A DNA stretch of 47,585 nt, from the IMG/VR virus record IMGVR_UViG_3300027839_000017, positions 1 through 47,585 of that record; one strand, written 5' to 3'. A program made the translations under genes and the position numbers. The DNA is from a virus. Within the stretch, counting starts at the first letter, position 1; each line of letters opens with the position of its first letter. Below, one piece after another: positions 966 through 45,649 of this stretch. The notes beneath the pieces are model-generated. The model made no database searches and was not told the origin of the DNA. It saw nothing but the letters and a program-made list of their open reading frames with translations.

Positions 966-983
966 TTGGCACGGAACTTGCTT
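966..983 (+). promoter_or_regulatory. Sigma-54 promoter P1 for the virion arm
   Basis: TTGGCACGGAACTTGCTT matches the sigma-54 consensus TTGGCAC-N5-TTGCT fully, with the required GG-N10-GC spacing (GG at 968-969, GC at 980-981). The predicted start site is about 993, giving a leader of about 47 bases before the first plus-strand gene at 1040. It is the last element of the non-coding left end. The match is seen directly; use by the phage activator at 41123-41956 is inferred. Confidence 0.88.
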
Positions 984-6679: not shown

Positions 6680-6702
6680 TGCCATACTAGCAACATGGCA
6701 TG
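6680..6702. repeat. Small inverted repeat overlapping promoter P4
   Basis: ATGCCAT (6680-6686) and ATGGCAT (6695-6701) form perfect 7-base arms. The right arm is the -24 box of P4, so a binding protein or cruciform here could control that promoter. Confidence 0.5.
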
Positions 6703-6712
6703 ATTCCTGCTC
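6695..6712 (+). promoter_or_regulatory. Sigma-54 promoter P4 for the major capsid gene
   Basis: ATGGCATGATTCCTGCTC carries TGGCAT-N5-CTGCT with exact GG-N10-GC spacing (GG 6697-6698, GC 6709-6710). The -12 side TTCCTGCT is identical to that of P3 (45632-45649). The predicted start is about 6722, giving a leader of about 145 bases before the capsid ATG at 6867. Weaker -24 box (CAT for CAC) than P1, but the position is ideal for boosting the most abundant virion protein. Confidence 0.68.
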
Positions 6713-6737: not shown

Positions 6738-6857
6738 CACTTCTAGTAAGTGCTTTCGCTTCTGAGGTAAGGGCATACCAATTACAATAGAGATTAGATT
6801 CTTTTCTGAATTTAGTATTTACTCTCTAGGTTCAACCCTTACTTCTAGAAGCGAAAG
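6738..6857 (+). promoter_or_regulatory. Structured leader of the capsid mRNA
   Basis: Two nested structures precede the capsid gene. A small hairpin GCACTT-CTAGT-AAGTGC lies at 6738-6753. A long stem pairs 6753-6773 with 6836-6857: 11 base pairs (CTTTCGCTTCT with AGAAGCGAAAG), an internal loop, then 6 more (TAAGGG with CCCTTA). The right arm ends 9 bases before the ATG. Likely roles are mRNA stabilisation, RNase processing, or translation control; which one is not shown by sequence. Confidence 0.65.
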
Positions 6858-28128: not shown

Positions 28129-29516
28129 CCGATAGCATTCTTCAATGCCTGCTTGACATTAATAGCTAGCACCTTATACCCGTCAACGACTCCTTTATTC
28201 CTAAGGATCTTGGCGGGTTTTATTATGCCCATTTGCTGTAACAGGTTTTTCACATCCATAGATCCTTTCCCATCTGTGTATCTTTGTAAGGAACTAAAGA
28301 GTTCACTGAAGGTTAGGTGAAGCTCTGATGCACCTGACTCATCCATCTCTTTATTGAACTCCCTTAGTATATCTGTCTTGACCTTATCTATGATATCTCG
28401 CAAGGCTTCCATGAATGGGATAGCCATTCTCTTCTCTGCATGTCGTAGGATATTAGAGGCTCTAACGAAGTGGTGGTATTCTACGAAAGGAGTAGATGGA
28501 TCTTCTGATAGCTTAAGGATCTGAGCCAGTGGCCAGTGGTGTCGCTTCCTCCTCTTAAAGTATTCGCGCAGATGTGGGTTATTGTTCTTGTGGTTTATGA
28601 ATTCCTTCTTATGTAAAGCCTCGACCTGTTCACATACCTCCTCGGTTACGTATAGCATACGGGAGTTCATAGCTACATAGTGTAGCCACTTAGCAAACTC
28701 TTCGAAGAACAGATCCTCTTTCTCTGAGCGAGAGTGGAAGTAAGGGTCAGCTTGGAGTGCTCCGTTAAGGATAACGAAACGAGATAACAAGCCTTCATCA
28801 GCGGAGGTAGTCTTAGCTATTCTTCCGAACCAACTAGGTGTGGCTGCTCCTATAAGGGATACGCAACTATGGTCTACGTCTACTGAGGATCTAGAGATAC
28901 GGCGAGAGGAGAAGGAACCTCCATCAAAGCACTGGTTAAAGACACCAGAGATATCATCGTTACGATTACCATAGCAACTACCCATCTCGTTGACGATGAG
29001 AGTGCCTATACTTACCTTGCGATTTACCGGGACTAGGAGTCCGCCCTTCTCATTAGATCGGTATTTCCATTTGATCTCCTGCTCGCAGTCCTTAGCTAGA
29101 TGTTTGATCATAGCCTCAGGAGTCATATCTTCTGGAAGGATGTTAGTCTTACAGTCTCTAGGCATATCACCTGAGAGTTTCTCTACGTATTTATTAGCTC
29201 TCTTAAAGAACTTAGGTAAGTGTTTAATTGCATTGGTCTTACCAGAACCAGACTCACCTACTATCATGACGAACAAGTTCATCTCCATCGTGTCTACTTT
29301 CTTAACCAGCCTGTTCTTATCTTTATTGTCTGGTTTGAGTGGATTGAGATCATTCTCATATATGGCTCCGATGCCATACTTGCCTGTCCCTGCTGTAAGG
29401 ATAGAGAAGTAGAAACCCCAATCAATGTATTCAGGTGCTACGTTAGTGTTACGCATGAATGCGCGGTATTTGTTAAGAAGCTCGTCCCTCTCATACCTGA
29501 TCTTCTCGTTTGCCAT
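28125..29516 (-). CDS. DUF3987-type replicative helicase/ATPase
   Basis: 463 residues. Walker A is GESGSGKT (87-94, K93); a downstream segment IGTLIVNEMGS gives a Walker B-like strand, and FNQCFDGGSFSSRR and VSLIGAATP follow, typical of DUF3987/YfjI proteins that act as phage replicative helicases. It would unwind DNA at the fork with the family A polymerase. Last gene of the minus arm. No separate primase is recognised, so priming may be carried by this protein or by the host. Confidence 0.8.
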   Translation of the reverse strand: MANEKIRYERDELLNKYRAFMRNTNVAPEYIDWGFYFSILTAGTGKYGIGAIYENDLNPLKPDNKDKNRLVKKVDTMEMNLFVMIVGESGSGKTNAIKHLPKFFKRANKYVEKLSGDMPRDCKTNILPEDMTPEAMIKHLAKDCEQEIKWKYRSNEKGGLLVPVNRKVSIGTLIVNEMGSCYGNRNDDISGVFNQCFDGGSFSSRRISRSSVDVDHSCVSLIGAATPSWFGRIAKTTSADEGLLSRFVILNGALQADPYFHSRSEKEDLFFEEFAKWLHYVAMNSRMLYVTEEVCEQVEALHKKEFINHKNNNPHLREYFKRRKRHHWPLAQILKLSEDPSTPFVEYHHFVRASNILRHAEKRMAIPFMEALRDIIDKVKTDILREFNKEMDESGASELHLTFSELFSSLQRYTDGKGSMDVKNLLQQMGIIKPAKILRNKGVVDGYKVLAINVKQALKNAIG

Positions 29517-29535
29517 GATAGTAAGTGTGAGTGTG

Positions 29536-29751
29536 TTACTGCTTATGTGATCGTTCTAGTATCTCCGCGCTGAGTTCCTGGAAGTAAGTCTGTGCAGGTC
29601 CTCTAGCTGTGAATGGTATCCTTTGGAGATAGGAATGATCGTGGGTTGTGAGGTCCACGAAGTAAGTATAGACTCCATTCCAATGCCTGTCAGTGATAGT
29701 TACCCTCCAGTCTGCTAGGTTAGGTATGTGTTTGGGTAGGTGAGAGATCAT
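29536..29751 (-). CDS. Hypothetical protein
   Basis: 71 residues, with aromatic and His-rich beta segments (WRVTITDRHWNGVYTYFVDL, then THDHSYLQRIPF). No family recognised. Overlaps the next upstream gene by ATGA at 29748-29751. Confidence 0.6.
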   Translation of the reverse strand: MISHLPKHIPNLADWRVTITDRHWNGVYTYFVDLTTHDHSYLQRIPFTARGPAQTYFQELSAEILERSHKQ

Positions 29752-29870
29752 TTACCTAACAACCTAACCTTCAACGCTGCCACTAACTCATTGTATAGAG
29801 TAGTAGGAGTAGGTATCTCATCATACTCTTTAGTTAAAAGAGGGATAGCTACCCCCTCCTTATCCTTCAT
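29748..29870 (-). CDS. 40-residue mini-gene
   Basis: Begins MKDKEGVAIPLLTKEYDEIP and ends in LKVRLLGK. Short, but its start overlaps the end of the DUF3820-like gene by 11 bases and its stop forms an ATGA overlap with the next gene, filling the gap exactly as other genes here do. Function unknown. Confidence 0.6.
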   Translation of the reverse strand: MKDKEGVAIPLLTKEYDEIPTPTTLYNELVAALKVRLLGK

Positions 29871-30105
29871 CACTACCTCGACTGTTATTCTTTTCATTCT
29901 CTTCCTTCAACCTATCTTGATTCCTTCTAATGTAATCTATGATAGCTAGATTACCTGTGACTGCATGATCGAAAGTATCCCATATCCATTTAAGATAATC
30001 AGCAGGGACAGAGGATAACCTTGTTCCTTTATACTTTCCGAAAGGCATAACCTGGCTGTCTAGCATAGGCATAAACTTTACCTCCTTACTATCTTGTGTC
30101 TTCAC
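29860..30105 (-). CDS. DUF3820-like protein
   Basis: 81 residues. The core VMPFGKYKGTRLSSVPADYL followed by KWIWD is the hallmark of the DUF3820 family, small proteins of uncertain role found in phages and bacteria, sometimes fused to exonuclease domains. Start is GTG in a GTGA overlap (30102-30105) with GGAGG about 8 bases upstream; an internal ATG 12 codons in is possible. Confidence 0.78.
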   Translation of the reverse strand: MKTQDSKEVKFMPMLDSQVMPFGKYKGTRLSSVPADYLKWIWDTFDHAVTGNLAIIDYIRRNQDRLKEENEKNNSRGSDEG

Positions 30106-30299
30106 TCTGCCTCCAATTCCCAGGACTTGAATCCCTTACTGCTACCTTCATCTCCATCTAACTTAACGAACACATTGCCTAGAGGAGAGTTGACTGTAAC
30201 TATACCTCTCTCGCAATCAGCGTGGTCCTTACTTCCATGTGCATGTTGTGGGATGAAGATCACTCTATCCCCTGCGTGGTGTTTAATTCTCTTGCTCAT
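30102..30299 (-). CDS. Hypothetical SH3-like small protein
   Basis: 65 residues, with a beta-barrel-like pattern (GDRVIFIPQHAHGS, GIVTVNSPLGNVFVKLDGD), as in small KOW/SH3-type folds. Overlaps both neighbours by 4 bases. Role unknown. Confidence 0.62.
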   Translation of the reverse strand: MSKRIKHHAGDRVIFIPQHAHGSKDHADCERGIVTVNSPLGNVFVKLDGDEGSSKGFKSWELEAE

Positions 30300-30661
30300 C
30301 TTGGTTCTTTTAATAGTGCAGTTAATCTATCAGCCATACTTAGCGCTGTTAGAGGAGTAGAACATTCTATATCTACAACCTCCCTCTCTAACACACCCTT
30401 AAGTTGGACTGTTGTGCTTTTATCTTTGAGGAATACCCAAGGGCCTTCATCACTTCTAACCCTACTAGGAACATCTACATCATTCCCATAATCTATCTCC
30501 TTCCCACATTGGATACAGAATTTAAACCTCTTACCTGCGTGTGGTTGAGAGAGGACTTGGGTAGGCTCTGTCGGATCATCTGGACTAGGGTTACAAGTTG
30601 TGCGATAGGTATAATCATACAACCCTTGGAAGCTCTTATCCCATTTACATTTATCTTTCAT
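30296..30661 (-). CDS. Hypothetical zinc-ribbon protein
   Basis: 121 residues. A likely zinc site is formed by C5, C23 and a CIQC pair (FCIQCGKEIDYG). Zinc ribbons of this type are common in small phage proteins of unknown role. Overlaps neighbours by ATGA on both sides. Confidence 0.65.
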   Translation of the reverse strand: MKDKCKWDKSFQGLYDYTYRTTCNPSPDDPTEPTQVLSQPHAGKRFKFCIQCGKEIDYGNDVDVPSRVRSDEGPWVFLKDKSTTVQLKGVLEREVVDIECSTPLTALSMADRLTALLKEPR

Positions 30662-30810
30662 AAATTCATTATCTTATTTGAATATCCAGTAATTAATACA
30701 ATGGACCAGAAGGTTAATATTCCTTCTATCCTACCGAAGACTGCTATGCTAATACTTAATGCTACTGCTAGTATCACCAAGCTTAGCCATTTCTCAGACA
30801 GTGATTCCAT
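30658..30810 (-). CDS. 50-residue two-helix membrane protein
   Basis: Begins MESLSEKWLSLVILAVALSI and contains two hydrophobic stretches (about 9-25 and 30-41) joined by GRIEG. It starts 17 bases inside the end of the papain-like protease gene and ends with an ATGA overlap. Topology resembles a tiny holin or an anchor for the protease; both are guesses. Confidence 0.68.
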   Translation of the reverse strand: MESLSEKWLSLVILAVALSISIAVFGRIEGILTFWSIVLITGYSNKIMNL

Positions 30811-31519
30811 AACAGCTTTTCAATGCAAGGTTAGCATAGGTTTTGATATCCATATATCCATAGCCTCTTCTACCCCACCTAGTTCCCCAGCTATTCTTGA
30901 TGATGTAACCTTGGGGAGTATAGCCGCAGATGATGATAGCATGTCCCGGACTCATAGGAGGTTGGATCTTATAGTTAGCTAACCTCTTAGTATTAAAGGA
31001 CATGAACTGTGGATCAGGAGTGAGGTGCGTGACTAAAGGACCATGTTCATGTAGCCATGCCTTGATCTTCTTCTCTGATCTACCTACGTTGTAATAGGAT
31101 TTGATCTTATTCTTAGCTGCTTCCTTGATATAATCTGCTTGGGAAAGGTTACAGAACCTACCCATAGGCATCTGCTTCCTGGTAAGACAGCCATGCTTCT
31201 TAGCTACAGAGAGCGCGTCCTTGATATAGGTTCCGGCGGTAGTCAGTGCTGTGGTAGGCAATACCTTATAAGCATCTGATTCCTTACTACACATCCACAG
31301 GAAGTTAGGTGATAGATCCTCAAGGGTATGCCATTCCATTACACCCGTAACTGCAAAGCCTACACATGCACCAGATTGGTATTGGTTCTTCATCTTCCAA
31401 CTCCTCCTCCTAAGGTCTAGGTGAGTGGGTGCACTGTTATCTGTTAGATCGTAACGGTAATCCGTTGAAGTGTTACGGTCTTTGAATGCTGTTAGTAGTG
31501 GTTTCATTTCTTGTTTCAT
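30794..31519 (-). CDS. Papain-family (C1) cysteine protease
   Basis: 241 residues. The full catalytic set is visible: oxyanion Gln46 and nucleophile Cys52 in QYQSGACVGFA, His193 in GHAIIICGY, and Asn209 in KNSWGTRWGRRGYGYMD. The N-terminal part before the catalytic domain is only about 30 residues (starting near APTHLDLR), so the usual inhibitory propeptide and signal peptide are missing and it should act in the cytoplasm without activation. It sits in the replication operon beside the polymerase. Targets may be host proteins; unknown. Confidence 0.9.
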   Translation of the reverse strand: MKQEMKPLLTAFKDRNTSTDYRYDLTDNSAPTHLDLRRRSWKMKNQYQSGACVGFAVTGVMEWHTLEDLSPNFLWMCSKESDAYKVLPTTALTTAGTYIKDALSVAKKHGCLTRKQMPMGRFCNLSQADYIKEAAKNKIKSYYNVGRSEKKIKAWLHEHGPLVTHLTPDPQFMSFNTKRLANYKIQPPMSPGHAIIICGYTPQGYIIKNSWGTRWGRRGYGYMDIKTYANLALKSCYGITV

Positions 31520-31785
31520 GTTACTTTATATACTTTGGTTAGTTGATATCTGTCTCCGGTTAGCTCTCTCAAGTTCCAAGTCAAGCCTCTCTGTGCTAGA
31601 TCTAGGAGGAGGTCTAAGCTAGCTTGAGACTTGGCTTCCATGTATAGTTTGCAGTCACTGTTACTACAACTCGCCCATCCAGTAGTCCCTTCATCCTCTT
31701 CTGGTATCTCTATATCACCCTCCAAACATACAGGGCAATTCTCATCATGGACTAGCTGTTCATCTCCGTCTCTATTATAGCTCAT
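31516..31785 (-). CDS. Hypothetical zinc-ribbon protein
   Basis: 89 residues. A CPVC pair (about 17-20) and a second CSNSDC pair (about 41-46) make a four-Cys zinc ribbon, similar in layout to Lar-type restriction-alleviation proteins, though homology is not claimed. Overlaps the protease start by ATGA. Confidence 0.68.
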   Translation of the reverse strand: MSYNRDGDEQLVHDENCPVCLEGDIEIPEEDEGTTGWASCSNSDCKLYMEAKSQASLDLLLDLAQRGLTWNLRELTGDRYQLTKVYKVT

Positions 31786-32014
31786 CTATTATCTCCTTCT
31801 GTTCTATTACTCTTCTCTGTGCCCATTCCCTAATCATCTTCAACAGCTCTATGTTAATGAAGTCAGGGTTAACTGGTATATCGTCAAACCTAATATAGAT
31901 CTTAGGATGGACCATGTTACTGTGGCACTTACTATATTGTAAGAGGTGTTCTAGTTCGACCAGGATCTTAGTCTCGATCTCTAGCTTAGTTGGTATGTAT
32001 GCGTTGTTGCTCAT
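31775..32014 (-). CDS. Hypothetical protein downstream of polymerase
   Basis: 79 residues from ATG at 32014 (MSNNAYIPTKLEIE), chosen because it forms an ATGA overlap with the polymerase stop (32011-32014); an in-frame ATG 27 bases earlier would overlap more. Helical, with a C-terminal charged end. Not recognised. Confidence 0.62.
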   Translation of the reverse strand: MSNNAYIPTKLEIETKILVELEHLLQYSKCHSNMVHPKIYIRFDDIPVNPDFINIELLKMIREWAQRRVIEQKEIIDEL

Positions 32015-34494
32015 ATCTCTACATCCTCCAAATCTTTCCAATTATATCCGACTTGACCCTCACACCTAATTGTAAAGGTCCCATGTTTAGTTGTGAATTC
32101 CTCCTCCATATACCCCGACATCTCCTTAGCTACCATCAACTCCTTTCCTATATCACACTGTGACATCATAGAGTCATGGACGTTAACTAAGAAATCTACT
32201 GACCTCATCTTCGGGTCATGAATTACTGCATGCTCTAACCTCTGTATCCCTACGTTAGTAAGGACTCCGATGGTTGATTGAGGCACCCATGAGTAGGCAT
32301 CTCTATACATAGCATCATCGGTGGGAGCATTGAATACTCTACGATCTCCGAATAGATTGGTAAGGGTTCTGTTGATAGCAAGCTGTTGCTTAACTTCTAC
32401 ATGCCACTTAGCTATCTCAGGAAACAAAGAGTAATACATAGCGAGCATAGCCTTAGCCTCCTTAGCCGTTAGAACGATAGCGCCGTCCGTCTCCTCCATG
32501 ATGGAGTTGATAAAGGTATTGAATCCCATGCCATAGTTACTAGCGTGGCATACCTTCTTCCCGAGGTAATAATATCTCTTACCTTCCCATCCATCTGAGT
32601 CCTTGATCAGTTTCGCTAACTCTTTCCATCTCTTATGTAAGACCAACTCCTCTACCTCTACGTTCAAGAAGCCTAGAATATAATCCGCCATCTTCATATC
32701 CATTAGCTTCGCGAACTCCTTAGCGAATAGGTGCATAGCGATGAAGCTATGTGGCTTGACGCCGTTTAAGAATAGCTTACGGTAGCGTCCAGGGGGGCTG
32801 AGGTAGGCAACAACCAGGGCCTCAGCACCCGCCTGATCGACGTTCACCAGAATCTTGTTAGCATCAGGGATGAAGAACTTTCTGAGGCTCTTGGTTATGT
32901 TCTGGACGTTAGAGCCGTATCCTATAGCCGCCGTTCGCTGCTGCCCGCTGGCTAGGGTGAATTGCCGCTTGAACACCAGTAAAGCTGACGAAGCATTACG
33001 CATAGTTTTGGTGCCAGCTGGCTTTATGGATGAGGTGAACCTATCCCCATTCTTACCCCAAGCTGCGAAGTCAAGGACTCCTCTATCCTTAGCTAGCTTC
33101 CTCATAGATAACAGGCAACGGATAGCTGGTATCTTATTGGTTCTAAGCAAACGGATCAGAGTCTCTGAGTTAGTCTTCCTCTTCACATACTTCTTACCTA
33201 GCCCCTTAAAGTCGAATAGGTATTCACCTACTTGGAGAGGAGAGTTGGCGTTGAGATCATAGCCTACTAGGATGTTAAGGATACGCTGTTGCTGTGTGTA
33301 TAGGCGGTCGAGTCGTTCCCTCTCCTTAGTTAATCCTGCCCGATCTACCTTTATTCCATGCAGCGCGGAGAACAGGAATGGGCGGATGAACGAGTTCCCT
33401 CTAACCACTGACTCCCTTAACTCCTTATCCTTACCTAGCACCACCTCTTGAGCTTCATAGATCCAAGCAGTAGTCTCTACATCCTTAGCATTATAATCCC
33501 ACAACTGTGTCTGTTGCCAATGGTTATGAGGTTCGAAACATCCCTCATCTTTGTGATATGGTAGGTCTAGGTAATGGGATATGCAATGACCTAAAGATTT
33601 CTCTGACTCAACTGACATCCTATGTTGAGCTATCATCGTATCATACATCCTCAACGGAGGAGATAGCTTGAACCTCCAGGCTAAGATGAAGAAGTCAAAG
33701 GAACCATTGTGTGCTATCCATCTATTCTCATCAAAGGCTTTCTGTAATACCTTGAAGAAGATACGGTAGTCCTCTTCTGAGAACATGATAGCCTTATCGT
33801 AGAGAGAGATAGGGATGACGAAGACTTCTCTAGTAGACATCCTTCCGATAGATAGGACAGTGATACCGTAGTTGATAGTAGTCTCTATGTCTATCACCCA
33901 GTCCTCGTTGATAGAGGAGTGAAGGATCTTAGTTACTAAGGAGATCTGCGCAGGGTTATGGTGTGTGAAGGGGGCAGGTTTAGTGATACCTTTCTCTAGT
34001 ATCCTTAACGCTTTCTTCACATCCTGGTAGAACCAGAAGCGGAAGTTCTTTCTTTGTGTGCCTCCGTGGTTCTTCTCATCCTTATCTAGTTCATCAGATA
34101 GATTCTCTTCATCCTTTGGATACTCTCGATTCAAGAAGTCATAGGCATTTTGCGGTGCATAGGTAGGGATGTAGACTATCTTATCCTCTCCTTCATACAC
34201 GTTACCTCTAACCTCATTCATCTCTGGATCTTTCTTGCCAGGTAGGTATTTATCAATAGCGTAAGGATCACACAACACTACTACCTTAGTGCCAGGAGAG
34301 AACTTGTTATTGTATATAGTCCTGTGTTGCTCCACTGTCCTAACATCTACGTTGAAGATAAGGTAAGGGTGAAGTATCTTCTGGAACCACTCACCTCCGT
34401 AACCAGTAAGTAGACGGGACTGGTCGAACCTAGAGGGTTTAGATAAGAGGAAGGTTATACCCTTGTATAAGGGTGCTTTGAAATCCTTAGTCAT
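32011..34494 (-). CDS. Family A DNA polymerase with 3'-5' exonuclease
   Basis: 827 residues, replicating the phage genome. Exonuclease: Exo I DIET (D202, E204), Exo II HNGSFDFF, Exo III YNAKDVETT. Polymerase: motif A NVDQAGAE (D553, E558), motif B ending HASNYGMG (N653, Y654), motif C VHDS (H773, D774). The last is HDS where most family A enzymes have HDE, an unusual change. An extra about 170-residue N-terminal region precedes the exonuclease. Starts in an ATGA overlap with the upstream gene. Confidence 0.95.
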   Translation of the reverse strand: MTKDFKAPLYKGITFLLSKPSRFDQSRLLTGYGGEWFQKILHPYLIFNVDVRTVEQHRTIYNNKFSPGTKVVVLCDPYAIDKYLPGKKDPEMNEVRGNVYEGEDKIVYIPTYAPQNAYDFLNREYPKDEENLSDELDKDEKNHGGTQRKNFRFWFYQDVKKALRILEKGITKPAPFTHHNPAQISLVTKILHSSINEDWVIDIETTINYGITVLSIGRMSTREVFVIPISLYDKAIMFSEEDYRIFFKVLQKAFDENRWIAHNGSFDFFILAWRFKLSPPLRMYDTMIAQHRMSVESEKSLGHCISHYLDLPYHKDEGCFEPHNHWQQTQLWDYNAKDVETTAWIYEAQEVVLGKDKELRESVVRGNSFIRPFLFSALHGIKVDRAGLTKERERLDRLYTQQQRILNILVGYDLNANSPLQVGEYLFDFKGLGKKYVKRKTNSETLIRLLRTNKIPAIRCLLSMRKLAKDRGVLDFAAWGKNGDRFTSSIKPAGTKTMRNASSALLVFKRQFTLASGQQRTAAIGYGSNVQNITKSLRKFFIPDANKILVNVDQAGAEALVVAYLSPPGRYRKLFLNGVKPHSFIAMHLFAKEFAKLMDMKMADYILGFLNVEVEELVLHKRWKELAKLIKDSDGWEGKRYYYLGKKVCHASNYGMGFNTFINSIMEETDGAIVLTAKEAKAMLAMYYSLFPEIAKWHVEVKQQLAINRTLTNLFGDRRVFNAPTDDAMYRDAYSWVPQSTIGVLTNVGIQRLEHAVIHDPKMRSVDFLVNVHDSMMSQCDIGKELMVAKEMSGYMEEEFTTKHGTFTIRCEGQVGYNWKDLEDVEI

Positions 34495-34982
34495 ATTCCG
34501 CCGCCTCCGAAACCTTGCTTGAACAACTCCCTCATTAACTCTTCCATAGTCTTACCAGTAGCAGATACATTTGGATTATATGCTCTCTGTTGCTGCTGTT
34601 TATACTGCGCCTTGAAAGGATCTTCATATTCATATTTGCTCCAAGCACTATACTGAGGATTATAAGACCTGCTATCTATTGCTGATCTAAGTACTAAGTG
34701 ATACAACTCTTCCATAACAGTCTCCTCATTAAAGGAGTAGCAGATGAAACGCACACTTAAACTTTCTCTTCCGTCCGTTAAATGCTTAAGGAAACATTTA
34801 CATTTAAATTCTTTCCTATCTTTAAACTCTAAGGAATCTATATACCTAAGCCCTCTAGCTGAGATAGTCTTACCTACAGGAAGGATAAAAGCTACTTCCT
34901 TTCTAACTATCTTCAACAGCATCTTCTGTTCTAAGTTATACACGCTAACCTTCTTACACATCTCTATCTGTTTATCATTCAT
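34491..34982 (-). CDS. Hypothetical protein before polymerase
   Basis: 163 residues, Lys- and Tyr-rich, with a Gln/Tyr-rich region (about 115-140) and a Gly-rich end (FKQGFGGGGI). No family recognised. Translationally linked to the polymerase by ATGA and overlaps the upstream gene by 8 bases; a polymerase accessory role is possible. Confidence 0.62.
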   Translation of the reverse strand: MNDKQIEMCKKVSVYNLEQKMLLKIVRKEVAFILPVGKTISARGLRYIDSLEFKDRKEFKCKCFLKHLTDGRESLSVRFICYSFNEETVMEELYHLVLRSAIDSRSYNPQYSAWSKYEYEDPFKAQYKQQQQRAYNPNVSATGKTMEELMRELFKQGFGGGGI

Positions 34983-35235
34983 AGGTTTGGCAAAGGTGAT
35001 TGATCTCTATCTCTAACCATTTCCTTATCAATGGTTTATCTTCTCTTAAACATGAGATAGCTACGTAAACATTCTCATCTAATCCCTTCACCTCTGTCTC
35101 TATTAGCGTGATCCCAATAGCAAGTGTATCTTTCGCGCATGACAGTAAGTGAGCATCCCTATACAGATAGACCTTCATACATGGCCTGATCCTAGGGAAC
35201 TCCGTCAGCACTATAATCTTTTCTTCATCACTCAT
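34975..35235 (-). CDS. Hypothetical protein
   Basis: 86 residues, mixed alpha/beta, no membrane segment, not recognised. First gene after the structured non-coding stretch 35236-35494, so it may open a sub-operon reaching down to the helicase at 28125. Confidence 0.6.
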   Translation of the reverse strand: MSDEEKIIVLTEFPRIRPCMKVYLYRDAHLLSCAKDTLAIGITLIETEVKGLDENVYVAISCLREDKPLIRKWLEIEINHLCQTYE

Positions 35236-35494
<259 letters not shown>

Positions 35495-36028
35495 CTATTC
35501 GAACACTCTAAGTTTAACGAAGACCTCTCCGATATTCAACCTCGTAGAGACTAGCTGTTCCCCGGTGTCAGGGTTAGTGATAGCCTCGCCAGTCTCCTCG
35601 TCTACTTGCGCTACTGTCTCTGTTCGGAATCGCCCAGACATAGACTCTCCTTTGAGGATCTCAGCTATATCGTCTAGGTTATTATCCATAACCGCAGCTA
35701 CTTGTTCCAGGTTATCACACTCCTCGAACAGAGATAGACCTGCCTTCTCTACTACTGCTGCAACCTGTTGCAACCCAGGTGCTGTTGCCTTGATGACGAA
35801 CCAGTTCTTACACTTCCTTCCGTTAGGATCTACCATCAAGACATTACCTGCTTCATCTTGTCCTGAAGGAACCTCTCCATTACCTGAGATCTCCACGTCA
35901 CATGCAAGCATGTGGACGCTAGGGTCTTTACGTGTAGACTTAACCTCAATAGCTTTGATGATGAAGTTGTATACGTTGGATGGGATGTTGTTTGGTTTCT
36001 CGCCTGCTGTGATATTTGCTAGTGACAT
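35495..36028 (-). CDS. DUF669-like, putative single-strand DNA-binding protein
   Basis: 177 residues from ATG at 36028 (MSLANITAGEKPNNIPSNVY). A TTG at 36082 would extend it into the Sak4 gene and is less likely. Beta-rich N-terminal half (YNFIIKAIEVKSTRKDPSVH, a typical OB-like strand pair) and helical C-terminal half. DUF669 genes commonly accompany Sak4-type ATPases, and this one directly follows it. Role in single-strand binding is inferred from family and place. Confidence 0.55.
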   Translation of the reverse strand: MSLANITAGEKPNNIPSNVYNFIIKAIEVKSTRKDPSVHMLACDVEISGNGEVPSGQDEAGNVLMVDPNGRKCKNWFVIKATAPGLQQVAAVVEKAGLSLFEECDNLEQVAAVMDNNLDDIAEILKGESMSGRFRTETVAQVDEETGEAITNPDTGEQLVSTRLNIGEVFVKLRVFE

Positions 36029-36068
36029 AATGTATAATATATGTAAGGGTTGTTTGTTTGTGTCCGAG

Positions 36069-36770
36069 TTACTTCGCCTCAACAGGAGGTAAAGCTAAAG
36101 TGTTACCGATGGTATAGAATTCATACACCCTCTCCAGCACTGGAAGGAGATCGTTAGGTATGAACCTCCTTCCCTCATACATACCTAGAGGGGTTTTAGC
36201 TGTATTGGAGTTGCCGTTATTAGTCTCCATCACATACTCCTTATCTTTCATCTGAGAGAACATGACCATAGTAAAGTTAGCTTCTAGCCTACCCCTCATC
36301 TTCTGGCCTTGCAACGCAGCACATAGGTTCTGAGAGGTAGTCATTACTCCACCCTTCATAGCCGTAGCCTCGATGACCTCAGAGATAGCAGTGACTATGA
36401 CTATCTTGTTCATCTTCTTAATGGATCGGATGATCTTGAACATGATCTTCTTGTAGTCAGCGTATAGATCGAACCCATTGTTATGGATAAGAGCCAGCTC
36501 TGATTCCACCGACTCACCCAATATGGTTATGGAATCCAATATCACTACTGATATGTTATCCATCTTATCTATCTGCTGCAATCTTATCGATATAGCAGAT
36601 GCCTTCATCACCTCTTCGTAATGTCCGAGGTTAGCTTTAGGAAAAGGTAGAGCCTTATCATCTCCGTTGATCAGAGCTACTTGAGGTAGCATTAGATTCC
36701 TTAGAGAAGAGGTCTTACCTGAACCTGATCTTCCTACTAGCAGGATCTTAGGATAATCTGTTGGTTTCAT
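36069..36770 (-). CDS. Sak4-type RecA-like ATPase
   Basis: 233 residues. Walker A GRSGSGKT (13-20, K19), Walker B ISVVILDSITIL, followed by a sensor region IVIVTAISEVIE. Length and motif order match Sak4/AAA_24 proteins, which act in phage recombination with a single-strand binding partner. ATGA-linked to the upstream MazG-like gene. Confidence 0.82.
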   Translation of the reverse strand: MKPTDYPKILLVGRSGSGKTSSLRNLMLPQVALINGDDKALPFPKANLGHYEEVMKASAISIRLQQIDKMDNISVVILDSITILGESVESELALIHNNGFDLYADYKKIMFKIIRSIKKMNKIVIVTAISEVIEATAMKGGVMTTSQNLCAALQGQKMRGRLEANFTMVMFSQMKDKEYVMETNNGNSNTAKTPLGMYEGRRFIPNDLLPVLERVYEFYTIGNTLALPPVEAK

Positions 36771-37141
36771 ATCTTATTCTCTCCTTCTATATGCTGTCCA
36801 TCATCTACTGCCTTGAAGTTCTTGTTAGGGTGTTCACCTTCTGTATGACATAGCATGAGGATGTTGCAAGCATCTACTAAGTATTCCACATTACCTGTCT
36901 TGATATATTCTTCTGCTCTCCTATGTGCATCCTTGACATACCTCTTAGCAGTAGTGAAAGAGAACTTCTTAGGTCTACCATACCTCATCAAGCCCATACA
37001 TAATCTGTTATGTTGTAGCTCCCAGAAGTGCATGGTGTCCTGAGTAATGACTGTGTTAGATAGCTGGTCATAGTCCTTGTTGAAGTCCCAGAGTTCAGCC
37101 TTGATAAGTAACCGCCGTCTCATGTAGTCGAAGTTGGTCAT
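36767..37141 (-). CDS. Possible MazG-like nucleotide pyrophosphohydrolase
   Basis: 124 residues, all-helical. The stretch YIKTGNVEYLVDACNILMLC followed by HPNKNFKAVDDGQH resembles phage MazG-like proteins, but the acidic metal-binding ExxE pattern is not clear, so activity is uncertain. It would cleanse or adjust nucleotide pools. Confidence 0.45.
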   Translation of the reverse strand: MTNFDYMRRRLLIKAELWDFNKDYDQLSNTVITQDTMHFWELQHNRLCMGLMRYGRPKKFSFTTAKRYVKDAHRRAEEYIKTGNVEYLVDACNILMLCHTEGEHPNKNFKAVDDGQHIEGENKI

Positions 37142-37145
37142 CTCT

Positions 37146-37232
37146 TTATTTCATTGCTGAGTAGATTAGGATTAACATTGTGAGGATGACTATGAGTAGT
37201 CCTGCTATGAGCGATAGTAGTATTGTTGTCAT
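37146..37232 (-). CDS. 28-residue single-helix membrane peptide
   Basis: Begins MTTILLSLIAGLLIVILTML: practically a single membrane helix with a short Lys tail. It fills the gap between two genes, with AGAGGAGAG upstream as ribosome site. One of several tiny membrane peptides in this operon; too short for family assignment. Confidence 0.6.
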   Translation of the reverse strand: MTTILLSLIAGLLIVILTMLILIYSAMK

Positions 37233-37253
37233 TCTTTTATCTCTTACTCTCCT

Positions 37254-38189
37254 CTAGTTCTGGAACTTGAGGGGCTCATACGGTCCCTCTTCGAACTTCG
37301 TCTTCAACAACTCATACAATCCCTGATCTCTATCAGCATTGCATAGATCCATATAGCTACAGTCACCCCAATACCCCGAGCATTGCATCCAATCCATAGG
37401 CCATGACTGCCTATTCCCTACATCTTGATGATCTAGATAGCCTATCCATTTCGCCATCGTCCGGTGCAACATCTCTTCGAAGATCTTCATGTCTTCTTCT
37501 AAGTAGATGGAGCTATCCGATTGTTCTACGTAACAGATCTTCTCTAGCTTAGGATCTTTCTTCTGTAACCTAGAGAGGAAGATACCTTCTAACCTAGACG
37601 AGGGGTAGTAACTCAACCCTAAGAACTTCTTCAACATCATAGAGTAGAACCTTAGCTGAGGTATATGAGCTGCCTTCTGTAGATACATCCGGCTATCCCA
37701 TGTAGCTGTGAACTTATAGTCTATGATCTCCAACTGCCTATCTGCTTTCTTCACCACCTTATCTATAGTGCCACACAGGATTACCTGTAGGTCATCCGTA
37801 ACCTTATAGGGGAGCGCGAAGTTCAACTCAGTTCCAAGAATCTTCTTATCTCCCTCGCCAATCTTTATAGGCATCTGGTGTAGATATTTAGATAGATGGT
37901 TCTGATAGTAGTTCAGACATACTAGTTGGAGATGTTGACAAGTCCTGAACTCCTTAGAATCTAAGATCTTACCTTCTGTATTCTCTTGGTAATACTCAGA
38001 GGCGTAGGCTAGAGCTGGGTTAAACCCTTCTCCTTCATACAACTTCCTCAAGAACCTATGTCCGGCGTTACCATAGATAGCTGCTATGGAATCAAACTTT
38101 GTTTGGGTATTCTCTACCTGCCTATAGAACATAGCTCTAGGGCAGAAGGTAGATGTTAGTAATGATGGGTCGAAGTATACTGTTCTCAT
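37254..38189 (-). CDS. PD-(D/E)XK nuclease with Fe-S cluster motif
   Basis: 311 residues. Nuclease core: GTIDKV, then EIIDYKFTAT with D157 and K159 of the DxK motif. Four Cys (C16 in TSTFCPRAMFY, and C270, C277, C283 in the C-terminal CSGYWGDCSYMDLC) match the [4Fe-4S]-binding arrangement of Cas4/AddB-type exonucleases. Likely resects DNA ends for recombination with Sak4 and the DUF669-like protein. Confidence 0.87.
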   Translation of the reverse strand: MRTVYFDPSLLTSTFCPRAMFYRQVENTQTKFDSIAAIYGNAGHRFLRKLYEGEGFNPALAYASEYYQENTEGKILDSKEFRTCQHLQLVCLNYYQNHLSKYLHQMPIKIGEGDKKILGTELNFALPYKVTDDLQVILCGTIDKVVKKADRQLEIIDYKFTATWDSRMYLQKAAHIPQLRFYSMMLKKFLGLSYYPSSRLEGIFLSRLQKKDPKLEKICYVEQSDSSIYLEEDMKIFEEMLHRTMAKWIGYLDHQDVGNRQSWPMDWMQCSGYWGDCSYMDLCNADRDQGLYELLKTKFEEGPYEPLKFQN

Positions 38190-38196
38190 CTTCTCT

Positions 38197-38478
38197 CTAT
38201 TTCCTTTGCTTCATGAAATCTCCCATTGCCTTCTCAACATCTACCCCGCTACTCATAATCTGTGTCATTAGCATCTCTTTCTCTTTAGTATCCTTTACCT
38301 TCTTATCTTTCTTCTTCACTACCTTCTTAGCCTTGACCTCTAACTTAGACTGGAGCCACTTAGCTTCTATAGGTGGACAGTCATTCAGAGAAGAGGATAG
38401 ACTAGACCTAAGCTCTTGCTCAGACATAGCCTCTAAGGTAGAAGGATCATCGATTAGTAATAGGTCTTCGAATGTCAT
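38197..38478 (-). CDS. Hypothetical Lys-rich protein
   Basis: 93 residues, with acidic N-terminal helices and a run of Lys in the middle (KAKKVVKKKDKKVKD), suggesting nucleic-acid contact. Ends 7 bases before the nuclease start. Not recognised. Confidence 0.62.
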   Translation of the reverse strand: MTFEDLLLIDDPSTLEAMSEQELRSSLSSSLNDCPPIEAKWLQSKLEVKAKKVVKKKDKKVKDTKEKEMLMTQIMSSGVDVEKAMGDFMKQRK

Positions 38479-38482
38479 CTCC

Positions 38483-38821
38483 TCAAGGCTTAAACAAATC
38501 CTTCTCTTCCAACTTCATCAGATACTTTACAAACTGCCACGTAGGAACTAGCTTGCCCTCTAACTGTGACATAGGTTGACCAGCGTTAGGTTCTCCTATA
38601 GGTATCACTGCTACTGCTCCTTGGACAGATGCGTATAGCACTCCAGCCCACCTCATCTTAGCATCTCGCGACGGAATGATGTTAATGATGAAGTGCTCTA
38701 ATGATTCCGTATCTGTTATACCATCCAATACCGTCGATGGTGGTATAGCTTGGTTGATTACAGAATCTAAACCTGGAACCTGTGCCTTACCTACTCTTTT
38801 AATGTTACCTCGTTTACTCAT
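38483..38821 (-). CDS. Hypothetical protein
   Basis: 112 residues, basic N-terminus (MSKRGNIKRVGKAQVPGLDS), mixed alpha/beta. Not recognised; between recombination genes in the operon. Confidence 0.6.
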   Translation of the reverse strand: MSKRGNIKRVGKAQVPGLDSVINQAIPPSTVLDGITDTESLEHFIINIIPSRDAKMRWAGVLYASVQGAVAVIPIGEPNAGQPMSQLEGKLVPTWQFVKYLMKLEEKDLFKP

Positions 38822-38824
38822 AAC

Positions 38825-39061
38825 TTATTCTGTTGGTGTTCCGTCTTCATGGGATTCTCTATCTTTAGTGATTGTGTTTTGTGCCTTCGTTATTAACTCA
38901 TACCCGTGGATGGACTTTGTTTCGTATCCGGTATCCTTGTATCCCTCTTGTCTCAGGAGATCCTCTAACTCAGGGTGTTCGATGTCAACGGACTTCAGTG
39001 AGTAAACTTCCCCTCCACCATTCGGCAAGGATGTTGACTCTCTCACTATTATTCTGATCAT
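38825..39061 (-). CDS. Hypothetical protein
   Basis: 78 residues, acidic and soluble, no recognised motif. Overlaps the upstream gene by ATGA (39058-39061). Confidence 0.58.
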   Translation of the reverse strand: MIRIIVRESTSLPNGGGEVYSLKSVDIEHPELEDLLRQEGYKDTGYETKSIHGYELITKAQNTITKDRESHEDGTPTE

Positions 39062-39696
39062 CCCTCTTCCTCTACTTCTTCTTCTCTAACCCTTAACACA
39101 GTCAAGATCCTTACATCTTTCATATAGATCCATTCAAAGATTATCCCTTCCATCTTGATCTGATCTAAGAACTTCTGCTCATCAAGAGTGACCTCGATGT
39201 TATCCACAATCTTACGGTCCTCTCCACCTACATCTTCTAGCCACTCACTGAGTTCATCCTTTAAAGAGAAGTGCTTACTGACTACCTTTGTTGCCATGTC
39301 GATAGCATCCACTGACTTACCTAACATGTCTACCCGTTGCTTGTTATACTCAAGCTTACTAAGAACAGTTATTGTATTCCCTTGCATCCTAGTTCGATAC
39401 CCTTGGTTAATAGAAGAGAACTTCTCCTTAGTAGAGTATAGCTCCAGGACAGTGAGCGCGGAACAGATGTAGTTGTAGATCGTGTTGATCGTAAAGGGTA
39501 ACTTATCTACATCTATAGTGATACCCGGCGGCCTATCATTAGCTAACATAAGCACCAGTTGCCTGACCCTCAAAGCCATAGCAATTCTTCTCCTATAAGA
39601 AGCCTCGTTCTTACTAGTAGATTTGATTTCAGCAGCTAAGCCCATCTCCTCCAAGTAATCCTCAGCTACCTCAACTGTTTGGAATATATCTGACAT
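39058..39696 (-). CDS. Hypothetical helical protein
   Basis: 212 residues, mostly helical with coiled-coil-prone segments (about 20-130), then a mixed C-terminus ending in acidic residues. No family recognised. Tightly packed in the replication operon. Confidence 0.62.
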   Translation of the reverse strand: MSDIFQTVEVAEDYLEEMGLAAEIKSTSKNEASYRRRIAMALRVRQLVLMLANDRPPGITIDVDKLPFTINTIYNYICSALTVLELYSTKEKFSSINQGYRTRMQGNTITVLSKLEYNKQRVDMLGKSVDAIDMATKVVSKHFSLKDELSEWLEDVGGEDRKIVDNIEVTLDEQKFLDQIKMEGIIFEWIYMKDVRILTVLRVREEEVEEEG

Positions 39697-39697
39697 A

Positions 39698-39976
39698 CTA
39701 TTCTATTTCCCTTTCATCATTCTGTTTCATGTGTTCTGTGATCTTATCAAGGTTACTTACTTTCAGAGAGTTAACCATAGAGTGAAGGCAGGATAACTCT
39801 TTAGCTATAGCTACCTGCTCGATAGGGATATTGTAAACCTCTCCTCCCACTAAGAACTCACAGAATACTTCATACTCATCCTTATCAGAATACTCTTTAT
39901 CCACGTAGTTAAGAGTGACAGCATCTATACGATCCTCTTCCACTATAGTTTCTTCGTCTAAAAATATTAAACCCAT
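39698..39976 (-). CDS. Hypothetical acidic protein
   Basis: 92 residues, Glu/Asp-rich with no membrane segment. Good ribosome site AAGGAAAGAATAAAGTT before the ATG. Function unknown. Confidence 0.6.
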   Translation of the reverse strand: MGLIFLDEETIVEEDRIDAVTLNYVDKEYSDKDEYEVFCEFLVGGEVYNIPIEQVAIAKELSCLHSMVNSLKVSNLDKITEHMKQNDEREIE

Positions 39977-39980
39977 AACT

Positions 39981-40220
39981 TTATTCTTTCCTTAAGTAAA
40001 CAATCTCCAAGTCATTACCGAAGATGAAGCCTTGATATACTTCACCACTAAAGTTAGTGATAAGGAGGAGGTCTATCTCCCTGGACCTATGAGTTTCTAT
40101 CAACTCCCTTTCCTGTAGTAACCTAGCTTTCTTCCATGTCTTCCTTCCTTCGTTGATAGAGAGGAGGATGACTGCTAGGGCTACTGTTACTGTTACATAA
40201 AACTGTGTTCTATCGCTCAT
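39981..40220 (-). CDS. Single-pass membrane protein
   Basis: 79 residues with one membrane helix near the N-terminus (about 7-22, FYVTVTVALAVILLS), then a basic helix and a beta-rich cytoplasmic part. Overlaps the 28-residue membrane peptide gene. Could form a complex with the tiny neighbouring membrane protein; role unknown. Confidence 0.65.
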   Translation of the reverse strand: MSDRTQFYVTVTVALAVILLSINEGRKTWKKARLLQERELIETHRSREIDLLLITNFSGEVYQGFIFGNDLEIVYLRKE

Positions 40221-40296
40221 AAGTAGATCGGATGGCTTTAACGGTTAGGTCTAGGAGGAACAGAAAAGATAGGGTGAGTGGGATTAGATAGATCAT
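40210..40296 (-). CDS. 28-residue membrane peptide
   Basis: Begins MIYLIPLTLSFLFLLDLTVK: one hydrophobic helix and a basic tail (RSTYER). Start forms an ATGA overlap with the glycosyltransferase stop (40293-40296) and its end overlaps the next gene by 11 bases, so it is translated in series with them. Confidence 0.62.
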   Translation of the reverse strand: MIYLIPLTLSFLFLLDLTVKAIRSTYER

Positions 40297-41039
40297 ACCT
40301 CTTTCCCTTCTCTCTCACTCAAGAGATCTCTATGGTATCTATCCATTCTCTCTTGCTCTGCTACTGACTTCCGATGTTGAATGACAGGGAAGAAGTCAAC
40401 AGTCATCCCATTCTCCTCTGATCTCTTAGCTATAGGCATCTCATGTGTAACACCTATCACCTCATCCGTCAACGCTATACTCATCAGCCTTGGCTGGATG
40501 TCAGGCCACATCCACCGTTGTAGATAGTGCTCTCTCATACCCCTAGGTAACACGGCACTTCCCTCATATACATTATTGCCTCCACCTGTTTCCTTTAAAC
40601 TCTTCAACACTTCCAGATCTTTAGGGCCTACACCCTTGATAGTATTGTTCCTTGGCATACCTATACAGAAGGGAGAGGAGAAATCTATGTGAGTAGGGAG
40701 CGAGTTGGATAGGTGAGAGAGGGAGTCTAAGGTTAGATACTCATCTCCATCTAAGAAGAAGATCCATCCTTCTTTCTTCTCCTGTTGCAACTGACGAAGG
40801 AGTTCAGTCTTCCTCTGCCCGAAGTTATTCTTGAAGGCATAACTGATAGGGTTATACCTATCATCATCTAACTCACTCAGCAACGCAGGATGTTGCTCAG
40901 AGTTACTATCTACCACCGGAACATAGGTTATATTCTCTTGCCCCCTATAGTAGTGACGAGCATTAACTAACTCATCCTTTCTTGAGAAGAACTGGTATAG
41001 GTAGAGGTGTGGTATGGGGGTGCTGGTTGTTGGATTCAT
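40293..41039 (-). CDS. Glycosyltransferase family 2-like, replication arm
   Basis: 248 residues. WIFFLDGDEYLTLDS carries the GT-A DxD, and PRLMSIALTDEVIGVTHEMP is a typical core-oligosaccharide GT2 tail, similar in layout to the enzyme at 14318-15052. It is separated from the three other glycosyltransferases, directly behind sigma-54 promoter P2, and heads the replication operon. Timing suggests it modifies something different from the virion glycan genes, perhaps host surface or a DNA-linked sugar. Confidence 0.75.
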   Translation of the reverse strand: MNPTTSTPIPHLYLYQFFSRKDELVNARHYYRGQENITYVPVVDSNSEQHPALLSELDDDRYNPISYAFKNNFGQRKTELLRQLQQEKKEGWIFFLDGDEYLTLDSLSHLSNSLPTHIDFSSPFCIGMPRNNTIKGVGPKDLEVLKSLKETGGGNNVYEGSAVLPRGMREHYLQRWMWPDIQPRLMSIALTDEVIGVTHEMPIAKRSEENGMTVDFFPVIQHRKSVAEQERMDRYHRDLLSEREGKEV

Positions 41040-41072
41040 AGCTGTGTGAAGTTTTAATGTATAACTATATAG

Positions 41073-41090
41073 AGCAGGTTCCGTGCCACA
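41073..41090 (-). promoter_or_regulatory. Sigma-54 promoter P2 for replication operon
   Basis: On the minus strand TGTGGCACGGAACCTGCT: TGGCAC-N5-CTGCT with GG-N10-GC spacing. The 11 bases TGGCACGGAAC are identical to those of P1. Predicted start near 41062, about 22 bases before the glycosyltransferase ATG. Located just after the gene for the activator itself. Confidence 0.8.
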
Positions 41091-41122: not shown

Positions 41123-41956
41123 TTATTGTGTAGATGGTGGTAAGATCTTATTAACCATAAGTTGGAACACGTAGTTAATGATAGCCCTACAGTTTCCCTG
41201 GTCTAGGAAAATCTTACCTTCCTTTGCTTTGATAATGAATGTGTTAGTATCATACTCACTAGGTGATTGGTTGAAGATCTTAGAGTAATAGTAGATGAAC
41301 ATCATCTCCAAGTCATCTATCCTCTTAGCTATAGGCGGGATGGAGAAGGTTAGCTTAGCTATCCTGAAGTATAGATCACTACGGAACTCCTCCTTATCCA
41401 TCATCTCAGGTAGGTTCTTATTCGTTGCGGCTACGACACGACACCTAAAGCCATAGTCTTCTTGTCCTCCGATAGCTCTAGCTCGTTGAGTCTCTAAGGC
41501 TCTGAGAAGCTTAGCCTGCATGGATAGAGGGAGTTCGCCGATCTCATCTAGGAACAGAGTCCCATGATTAGCCTGTTGAAACAAACCCTCCCTATCCTTA
41601 ACACACCCCGTGTAACTACCTTTCTTAGCTCCGAAGAACTCAGCCTCTATCAACTCAGATGGTATAGCTCCGCAGTTAACTACTACGAACTTACCTTCCC
41701 TGCCATTGTGTAGGCGGTAAGCTAAGGCTTCCTTACCTACCCCTGAAGGACCACTAATCAGACATGAGATATCTAACTTACTCACTACCTCTATCTGATT
41801 CAAGGTATGAATGAGCTTATCATCCTGAGTATAGAAGGTTCCTTTCCATCTACTCCTTAGAGAAGACTCGAGGTTGAAGATGTCTAGCTTCTTATCAGGA
41901 AGTATATCCTCTTGGAATTCATCTAAGATAGTCTGCTTGGTATGTTGGGCTTGCAT
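41123..41956 (-). CDS. Sigma-54 activator ATPase (AAA+ domain only)
   Basis: 277 residues. Walker A GPSGVGKE (K75), sigma-54 contact loop GSYTGC (113-118, replacing GAFTGA; key Thr and Gly kept), Walker B LFLDEIGELP (D137, E138), sensor AATN, arginine residues FRSDLYFR (R192, R198), and lid GNCRA (254-258). These are the marks of bacterial enhancer-binding proteins, which use ATP to open sigma-54 promoters. No receiver or other sensory domain precedes it and no HTH follows: it ends about 20 residues after the lid. Enhancer-less activators such as FlgR and CtcC are known. The phage promoters P1-P4 are its likely targets. Confidence 0.93.
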   Translation of the reverse strand: MQAQHTKQTILDEFQEDILPDKKLDIFNLESSLRSRWKGTFYTQDDKLIHTLNQIEVVSKLDISCLISGPSGVGKEALAYRLHNGREGKFVVVNCGAIPSELIEAEFFGAKKGSYTGCVKDREGLFQQANHGTLFLDEIGELPLSMQAKLLRALETQRARAIGGQEDYGFRCRVVAATNKNLPEMMDKEEFRSDLYFRIAKLTFSIPPIAKRIDDLEMMFIYYYSKIFNQSPSEYDTNTFIIKAKEGKIFLDQGNCRAIINYVFQLMVNKILPPSTQ

Positions 41957-42537: not shown

Positions 42538-42648
42538 TCATCCTCTCTTTATTGTTTCCATGATTGCGTGGATTACCCACATCACTGAGACTATACCTGC
42601 CCCCATAATGAATCCGATAAAGAACTCTATTCCTATTGCTGCTATCAT
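42538..42648 (-). CDS. 36-residue membrane peptide
   Basis: Begins MIAAIGIEFFIGFIMGAGIV: one or one and a half membrane helices then a basic end. Its ATG overlaps the helicase stop as ATGA (42645-42648) and its stop lies 3 bases before the next start, so translation is very likely. Fourth tiny membrane protein of the minus arm. Confidence 0.68.
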   Translation of the reverse strand: MIAAIGIEFFIGFIMGAGIVSVMWVIHAIMETIKRG

Positions 42649-44222
42649 ACACTCATTTCTATCTGTAATGTTTTCGTATCTTCCTCTTGATCCATGAAGT
42701 CACCAGACTCCAAACTCTCTTCTGTATCTCCATCCCCGCTATCACTTACCATTAACCCGGAGTCATCTATGTTCTTCTTACCCTTGATCCTCTTCTCTTC
42801 TGGTATGAATAGGTCTGCCCAACTCTCACCCTTAGCTATCATCTTGCTCATACAATTGAGTTTCTTCTCTAGCTTATGAGATACATACTCTTCTACAGTA
42901 TCCTTGAAGTATAGCATGTAGATGAAGGTGTTAGATATGGAGTTGATACGGTGAGGTCTACCTGCTGTTTGTGCTACTTCGATAGCGTTGAAGGCAGGTG
43001 ACATATAGAGATCTCGAGGATGAGTAGTGGTTGCGTTATCAGGGTTATGATGAGCTGATAGCCCAGTTCCGCCGGCTCCGATAGTAAGGACTAACACCTG
43101 AGTCTTACCTGTTTGGTAGTCATCTAGTTGCTGTTGCCTTTCTTCCATAGACTGTCCTCCTTTGATATAGGAAGCAGTGAGTTTCTGTTGCTTGAAGCAG
43201 AAGCCTAACAACTCCACTGTGTCTAGATACTTAATCGCTATGATAGGAGAGCGACCATTATCTATAGACTGCTTCGCCGCCATAGCTAGGTATTGAGCGC
43301 GGATCGACTCGGCTCTCTTCTGTAGCTTACCAAGAGCTATAGCCTTCTGCAACGCTGTGTTCTGAGTTACTACCTTACCTAAGATCTCCAACTCTCTCAT
43401 ATAATCATCCCAAGCTGCATCATACATCTCTCTATGCTGAGGAGTAGCGAAAGGGATTACTAGTTGGGTAGCCTTAGCTTTATGCTTGAACCTTACTCCC
43501 TTAACTGCTACGAAGCTACGATCTAAGGCTCTCTTGATCCTCTCTACTCCCGAAGCATTCAGTTCATCTGGATTCCCTGCCGTATCCCATATCCAATCCT
43601 TCCACTTATCATGGGTCAACCTCAACCTCTTATCCATAGATCCAGGGATAGTCTTAACTCCGCAGCTATAGCAGATCCACCAGCTCTCGCCAGGTTTGAT
43701 GAAGGGAGTATAGCCTACGTTTAAGAACTGTGTCTCTTGGCTATCTATGAGTAAGGAGGAGAGTAACTGAGTTATCTTAGCTGCCTTATTCCTTAACGCC
43801 TGCGGTTCATCCACTATCACATACCTCGGAAAGAGTTCTGGTTTCCAGTGATACTCTATCTCTTCCTCCATCCCTACGTAATACTTCTCCTCATTGAAGT
43901 ATAGTTTCTTATAATGTTTAGTTCGAAGGTTAGCATAGGACATACAGATAACCTGGTTAGGTCCAAGGCCAAACTCCTTGAACACACGTTGAGATTGCTT
44001 GACTACAGAAGAGGGGCTGATGTATAGGAAGGGAGAGTGAATGCTACCGTTGATCGGCGAGACGCCTCCTTCCCTCTTCAATAACTCCTTAATCAATAGA
44101 GCTACCATATACGTCTTACCTAAACCTGTCATAGCTGACAAGTGAATGCCTCTCTCTATAGCTAGAGCTAGGATCATCTCATCCTTAGCTTTAACTTGGA
44201 ACTCGAAGTGTTGGATGCTCAT
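42645..44222 (-). CDS. SF2/SNF2-like helicase
   Basis: 525 residues. Motif I MTGLGKT (K36), motif II VDEPQ (D138) where most have DEAH/DExH, and motif VI QTAGRPHRI (Q418-R425), plus LTIGAGGTGLSAHHN as motif V. A Cys pair (CYSC) lies in an inserted segment around residues 175-200. Close to SNF2-type and phage recombination/replication helicases. It could remodel DNA or displace proteins. Confidence 0.87.
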   Translation of the reverse strand: MSIQHFEFQVKAKDEMILALAIERGIHLSAMTGLGKTYMVALLIKELLKREGGVSPINGSIHSPFLYISPSSVVKQSQRVFKEFGLGPNQVICMSYANLRTKHYKKLYFNEEKYYVGMEEEIEYHWKPELFPRYVIVDEPQALRNKAAKITQLLSSLLIDSQETQFLNVGYTPFIKPGESWWICYSCGVKTIPGSMDKRLRLTHDKWKDWIWDTAGNPDELNASGVERIKRALDRSFVAVKGVRFKHKAKATQLVIPFATPQHREMYDAAWDDYMRELEILGKVVTQNTALQKAIALGKLQKRAESIRAQYLAMAAKQSIDNGRSPIIAIKYLDTVELLGFCFKQQKLTASYIKGGQSMEERQQQLDDYQTGKTQVLVLTIGAGGTGLSAHHNPDNATTTHPRDLYMSPAFNAIEVAQTAGRPHRINSISNTFIYMLYFKDTVEEYVSHKLEKKLNCMSKMIAKGESWADLFIPEEKRIKGKKNIDDSGLMVSDSGDGDTEESLESGDFMDQEEDTKTLQIEMSV

Positions 44223-45631: not shown

Positions 45632-45649
45632 AGCAGGAAGTGTGCCAAG
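45632..45649 (-). promoter_or_regulatory. Sigma-54 promoter P3
   Basis: On the minus strand CTTGGCACACTTCCTGCT: TTGGCAC-N5-CTGCT, GG-N10-GC spacing exact. Predicted start near 45621, giving a leader of about 190 bases before the ATG at 45431. It lies 6 bases after the end of the gene at 45656-46000. Confidence 0.8.

Follow-up and report, generated by a model that had tools for sequence, protein, structure and literature searches.

Minimal activators of sigma-54 in bacteria and in a phage

Transcription dependent on sigma-54 is a very strict on/off switch, with essentially no leak in the absence of an ATP-driven activator. The known switches of T4 (AsiA/MotA, gp55/gp33), lambda Q, N4 and T7 RNA polymerase rely on sigma-70, a phage sigma factor, antitermination or a phage polymerase, and to our knowledge none of them employs sigma-54 with an AAA+ activator. 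They resemble the system considered here in that an early protein redirects or replaces the polymerase for the later operons. No phage-encoded sigma-54 activator was found in the literature, a search restricted to openly licensed papers and hence no proof of absence. The protein and promoter parts discussed below are of known kinds; their use as the main switch of a phage appears to be undescribed and new.

A Fis-type C-terminal HTH is typical of bEBPs, and it is absent in some activators of type Ic (PMC3162934, PMC3372290). Helicobacter FlgR, Chlamydia CtcC and Rhodobacter FleT are such HTH-less activators of type Ic (PMC3162934, PMC3372290), and FlgR activates without an enhancer (PMC3372290). 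The phage protein shares with these three the AAA+ activator type, a GAFTGA-type loop and the lack of a DNA-binding domain, and with FleT also the lack of a sensor domain. However, they are bacterial proteins controlling bacterial genes, for example flagellar ones, whereas the phage gene adjoins the phage's own sigma-54 promoter. The same domain content is found in PspF(1-275) and in the AAA+-only DctD250, which is constitutive and, in Salmonella, promiscuous, with activity at many sigma-54 promoters (PMC3844500), but these are laboratory truncations and the phage proteins are natural.

The DNA analysed, referred to as the window, comprises all 47,585 bases of the record for an uncultivated virus. 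Its minus strand bears, at 41123-41956, a gene for a 277-aa AAA+ sigma-54 activator (bEBP; PF00158, E 6.7e-56). The product contains Walker A and B motifs, a GAFTGA-type loop and a FRSDLYFR arginine-finger box, ends just past sensor II, and has neither an HTH nor a receiver domain. Its loop reads GSYTGC, and the forms met in relatives are GAFTGA, GSFTGA, GAYTGA, GSYTGA, GSYTGC or GSYSGA. Taken singly, the substitutions of the window loop are all classed as compatible, or probably so, with a working activator (PMC3162934). The loop is accepted on this ground, the function of its combination of three changes being inferred. In an AF2 model the core was predicted with pLDDT of about 90 and the lid domain poorly; the best PDB matches of the predicted fold were FleQ, NtrC1, NtrC4, FlrC and PspF, in agreement with sequence profiles. 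Neither an HTH_8 domain nor a Pfam-recognisable sensor domain was detected in any of 34 family members, and the lack of HTH_8 throughout places the family with the known HTH-less type. All 34 proteins match phrog_7998, a PHROGs family with no function assigned, and one is suggested here. Membership in the sigma-54 activator family is supported by these features, and ATPase-driven activation of sigma-54 RNA polymerase would be the inferred activity.

Sigma-54 sites of the window and the genes behind them

The first-pass annotation had claimed that two promoters, P1 on the plus and P2 on the minus strand, share 11 identical bases. The 11-mer TGGCACGGAAC indeed occurs exactly twice in the window (967-977, plus; 41078-41088, minus), and the similarity reaches further. 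P1 (TGGCACGGAACTTGCT, 967-982, plus) and P2 (TGGCACGGAACCTGCT, 41073-41088, minus) are identical at 15 of 16 bases, the match ending at the -12 element. Their common form, TGGCACGGAAC(T/C)TGCT, corresponds to the consensus of sigma-54 promoters, in which -24 is marked by GG and -12 by GC (in P2, 41087-41086 and 41075-41074, respectively). Measured against TGGCA at -24 and TTGC at -12, with GG and GC 10 bases apart, P1 is exact and P2 has CTGC for TTGC. The spacer bases common to P1 and P2 are unnecessary for sigma-54; they are not kept in relatives, where the -24 and -12 elements are. Taken alone, the 11-mer represents only a modest excess, because with one mismatch allowed shuffles averaged 0.17 matches and 2 of 100 shuffles reached two. 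This figure is what could be cited for a chance match, with the replication genes read from upstream only; the enrichment of sites and their conserved position across the clade, described below, leave that explanation with practically no credit.

The strict pattern TGGCAY-N5-HTGCT occurs four times in the window; from dinucleotide shuffles 0.15 occurrences would be expected. Besides P1 and P2, it marks P3 (TGGCATGATTCCTGCT, 6696-6711, plus) and P4 (TGGCACACTTCCTGCT, 45632-45647, minus). All four sites are intergenic, each pointing into genes. They were also the top four of the window with a scoring matrix trained only on sites following the activator gene in relatives, the window being left out: 24.5 for P1, which ranked first, 23.0 for P4, 21.0, and 19.7 for P2. 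The runners-up scored 15.6, at position 58 (minus), and 9.9. The former is a possible fifth site (TGGTATGGTAGTTGCT, 43-58, minus), weaker and uncertain, which is directed out of the window at its left end; in a circular or permuted genome, the early genes near 47435 would lie in front of it. By motif, P1-P4 can be regarded as sigma-54 promoters; that they fire is inferred, as there are no transcript data. The earlier picture of two such promoters thus holds for both of them and is refined to at least four.

The expected start of P2, 12 bases past the C of the -12 element, falls at 41062, the same figure as proposed before, and lies 23 bp ahead of the ATG at 41039. The promoter had also been described as lying directly behind the activator gene and heading the replication operon. 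Both statements agree with our results: P2 is located 34 bp past the activator stop codon, and the genes behind it (28125-41039, minus) are all co-directional, an arrangement that recurs in distant phages, as does the position behind the activator gene. The operon includes, by Pfam and PHROGs matches, an exonuclease (37254-38189), DNA polymerase A (32011-34494) and a primase/helicase-like gene (28125-29516), all on the minus strand. Its first gene (40293-41039, minus) gave a weak glycosyltransferase-2 match (PF13704, below the cut-off), which would be an unusual gene to open a replication operon.

P1, with an expected start at about 993, precedes the operon of the terminase large subunit (1774-3381, plus; phrog_2, E 1.8e-16). 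P4, expected to start at about 45621, lies upstream of the operon containing the activator and, upstream of it, a DEAD/SNF2-type helicase gene (42645-44222, minus; Pfam, PHROGs), which has an ortholog close to the activator in each of the five relatives examined. P3 (expected start about 6722) stands ahead of a 430-aa capsid-like gene (6867-8159, plus) with orthologs in five relatives. Its identity as a capsid gene is inferred from position only; Pfam and PHROGs gave no family match for the protein and the pLDDT of its AF2 model was only 30.

A separate observation concerns the leader of the capsid-like gene. Behind P3, at 6758-6779 (plus), there is an RNA element of the form GCTTCTG-stem-AGGGCA-stem, present as a single copy in the window and in tandem in most relatives (L120:14599-14690, L127:14397-14450, L155 and others). 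In relatives it consists of GCTTCTA, a short stem, the loop AGGGCA and the stem again, just ahead of the capsid-like gene. Covariation over 20 sequences was seen at all four stem pairs, the elements having been picked for a stem of at least three pairs, and all 29 hits of a scan fall in the leader of the capsid-like gene. No Rfam match was found for this element.

Among the four sites of the window, a search for enhancer-like upstream words of at least 9 bases common to three of them gave none. This is expected, since the activator lacks an HTH or any other DNA-binding domain and therefore no enhancer site is foreseen for it. Sigma-70-like sites in the early region showed no excess over shuffles.

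Activator and sites in related phages

The terminase or the DNA polymerase, at about 30-40% identity, and not the promoter or the activator, served to recruit relatives, with the exception of G020, which was first met through the promoter pattern and was also part of the polymerase bait. Viral contigs gave no matches when a single activator or polymerase sequence was the query, and alignments of two and of six sequences were needed. Activator matches in records labelled as phage were set aside, as most of them look like bacterial contigs deposited under that name. The polymerase alignment brought six contigs at 31-38% identity; the activator was present in five of these, namely all the longer ones, the sixth being a 9-kb fragment. 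With the terminase alignment 80 loci were recovered and 42 records screened. The activator was found in 27 of the 42, every one of which also had strict sigma-54 sites, and 11 records of an outgroup branch had neither activator nor strict sites. Four further screened records, 18-37 kb long, contained sites and no activator. One of these, G077, is probably a partial contig, because it shares an identical terminase with G076, which bears the activator; in the clade of the window the HTH-less activator occurs in all long records except one partial contig.

Strict sites numbered 29 in six genomes, against about 1.0 expected, and exceeded the reversed pattern by 118 to 4 in the terminase-recruited records and by 45 to 2 in another count. 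A single branch of the terminase tree separates the records without activator from the others, so that the co-occurrence of activator and sites amounts to a single event. Since that event, both have been kept while the proteins diverged to about 30% identity, and their conserved neighbourhood inside the clade is a stronger argument than the co-occurrence in comparison with the outgroup.

This neighbourhood was compared in 33 activator-bearing records, the window included. A site on the same strand lies within 700 bp past the activator stop codon in 31 of them, and within 50 bp in 18; the exceptions are G052, where the site is about 2 kb from the activator, and G074, with no site found after the activator. 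In the six fully compared genomes, sites stand ahead of the terminase operon; similarly to P4, they also precede the helicase/activator operon in G050, G051 and G052. The capsid-like gene has a site 109-195 bp ahead in most relatives where it could be placed, and no recognisable site was found ahead of it in one subclade (L129, L138, L141 and others).

Sigma-54-like sites were also noticed in another phage group, represented by two 21-kb fragments, G001 (L093/L094) with 16 and G002 (L095/L096) with 12 of them. They lie mostly just 5' of a small gene and are followed by TATATAGGTA. The transcripts may be leaderless, because the ATG is often about 27 bases from the start of the site. No activator was found in these fragments.

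It might be asked whether the sites serve another DNA-binding factor, such as a repressor or a replication or packaging protein, and merely resemble sigma-54 promoters. Like operators, they are few in number and lie between genes, and in G001 and G002 conservation extends downstream of -12 as well (TATATAGGTA). Nevertheless, the bases conserved are those of the -24 and -12 elements (some of them fixed by the search pattern itself), the sites precede genes and are oriented in the sense direction, and in the clade they always occur together with a sigma-54 activator gene. We thus consider such a factor very unlikely, and sigma-54 the preferred reader of the sites. The first-pass annotation had further suggested that one factor could switch both arms. 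This part is supported by recurrence of the arrangement in dozens of distant phages; the factor, however, would be the sigma-54 holoenzyme opened by the activator rather than a DNA-binding protein reading the 11-mer.

A proposed switch based on host sigma-54

At the level of sequence we regard as established the family of the activator, the promoter motifs, their positions, their conservation in the clade and the absence of a phage sigma-54 gene. PF04552 (sigma-54/RpoN) was absent from the 24 records searched and was detected in the positive controls (E. coli, B. subtilis, Caulobacter and Bacteroides). As no tested record has its own RpoN, host sigma-54 is the likely, inferred partner. Its presence in the host is assumed, since no host has been identified: relatives by terminase or polymerase were found in none of 84,980 genome species, and for this reason no host could be named. 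The best named matches of the terminase are Akkermansia phages, whose 28-30% identity is too weak for a claim about the host.

We find it highly probable that host sigma-54 RNA polymerase, opened by the phage activator, turns on the replication and virion operons. In the early phase, a timing that is itself inferred, the minus-strand helicase and activator operon would be read, probably from a host housekeeping promoter, and host RNA polymerase with host sigma-54 would wait in closed complexes at P1, P2 and P3. The activator, devoid of receiver and DNA-binding domains, is inferred to act as a constitutive, ATP-driven ring in solution that remodels these complexes; for work from solution, DctD250 and the enhancer-independent FlgR offer precedents. 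The three promoters would then be opened together, P2 giving the replication operon, P1 the terminase operon and P3 the capsid-like gene. P4 perhaps provides positive feedback on the activator's own operon, again by inference.

A different arrangement would be that host activators open the phage promoters, linking them to host physiology, and that the phage AAA+ protein is directed mainly at sigma-54 genes of the host. Without a DNA-binding domain, the protein could act on host promoters too. An unrelated human-faecal phage (MT121960.1; L104 and L097) encodes an unannotated HTH-less sigma-54 activator and has no recognisable sites, so that opening phage promoters need not be the role of such an activator in every case. 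Yet in nearly all relatives the activator gene adjoins a phage site, and the outgroup phages lack both; we therefore judge this arrangement improbable and retain the opening of phage promoters by the phage's own activator. We favour only slightly the broader proposal that, in a whole clade of tailed phages, host sigma-54 and a natural AAA+-only activator take the place of the usual sigma-70, antitermination or phage-polymerase switches in controlling replication and virion genes, and that this activator, being soluble, turns on the host sigma-54 regulon during infection as well.

With an activator of its own, a phage acquires a tight switch made of a single protein. The prediction follows that the host range of these phages is set by rpoN. 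A function is also suggested for the unannotated phage family phrog_7998, and natural minimal activators may serve as tools for reading host sigma-54 regulons. If the proposed mechanism is true, sigma-54 can be central to a viral life cycle.
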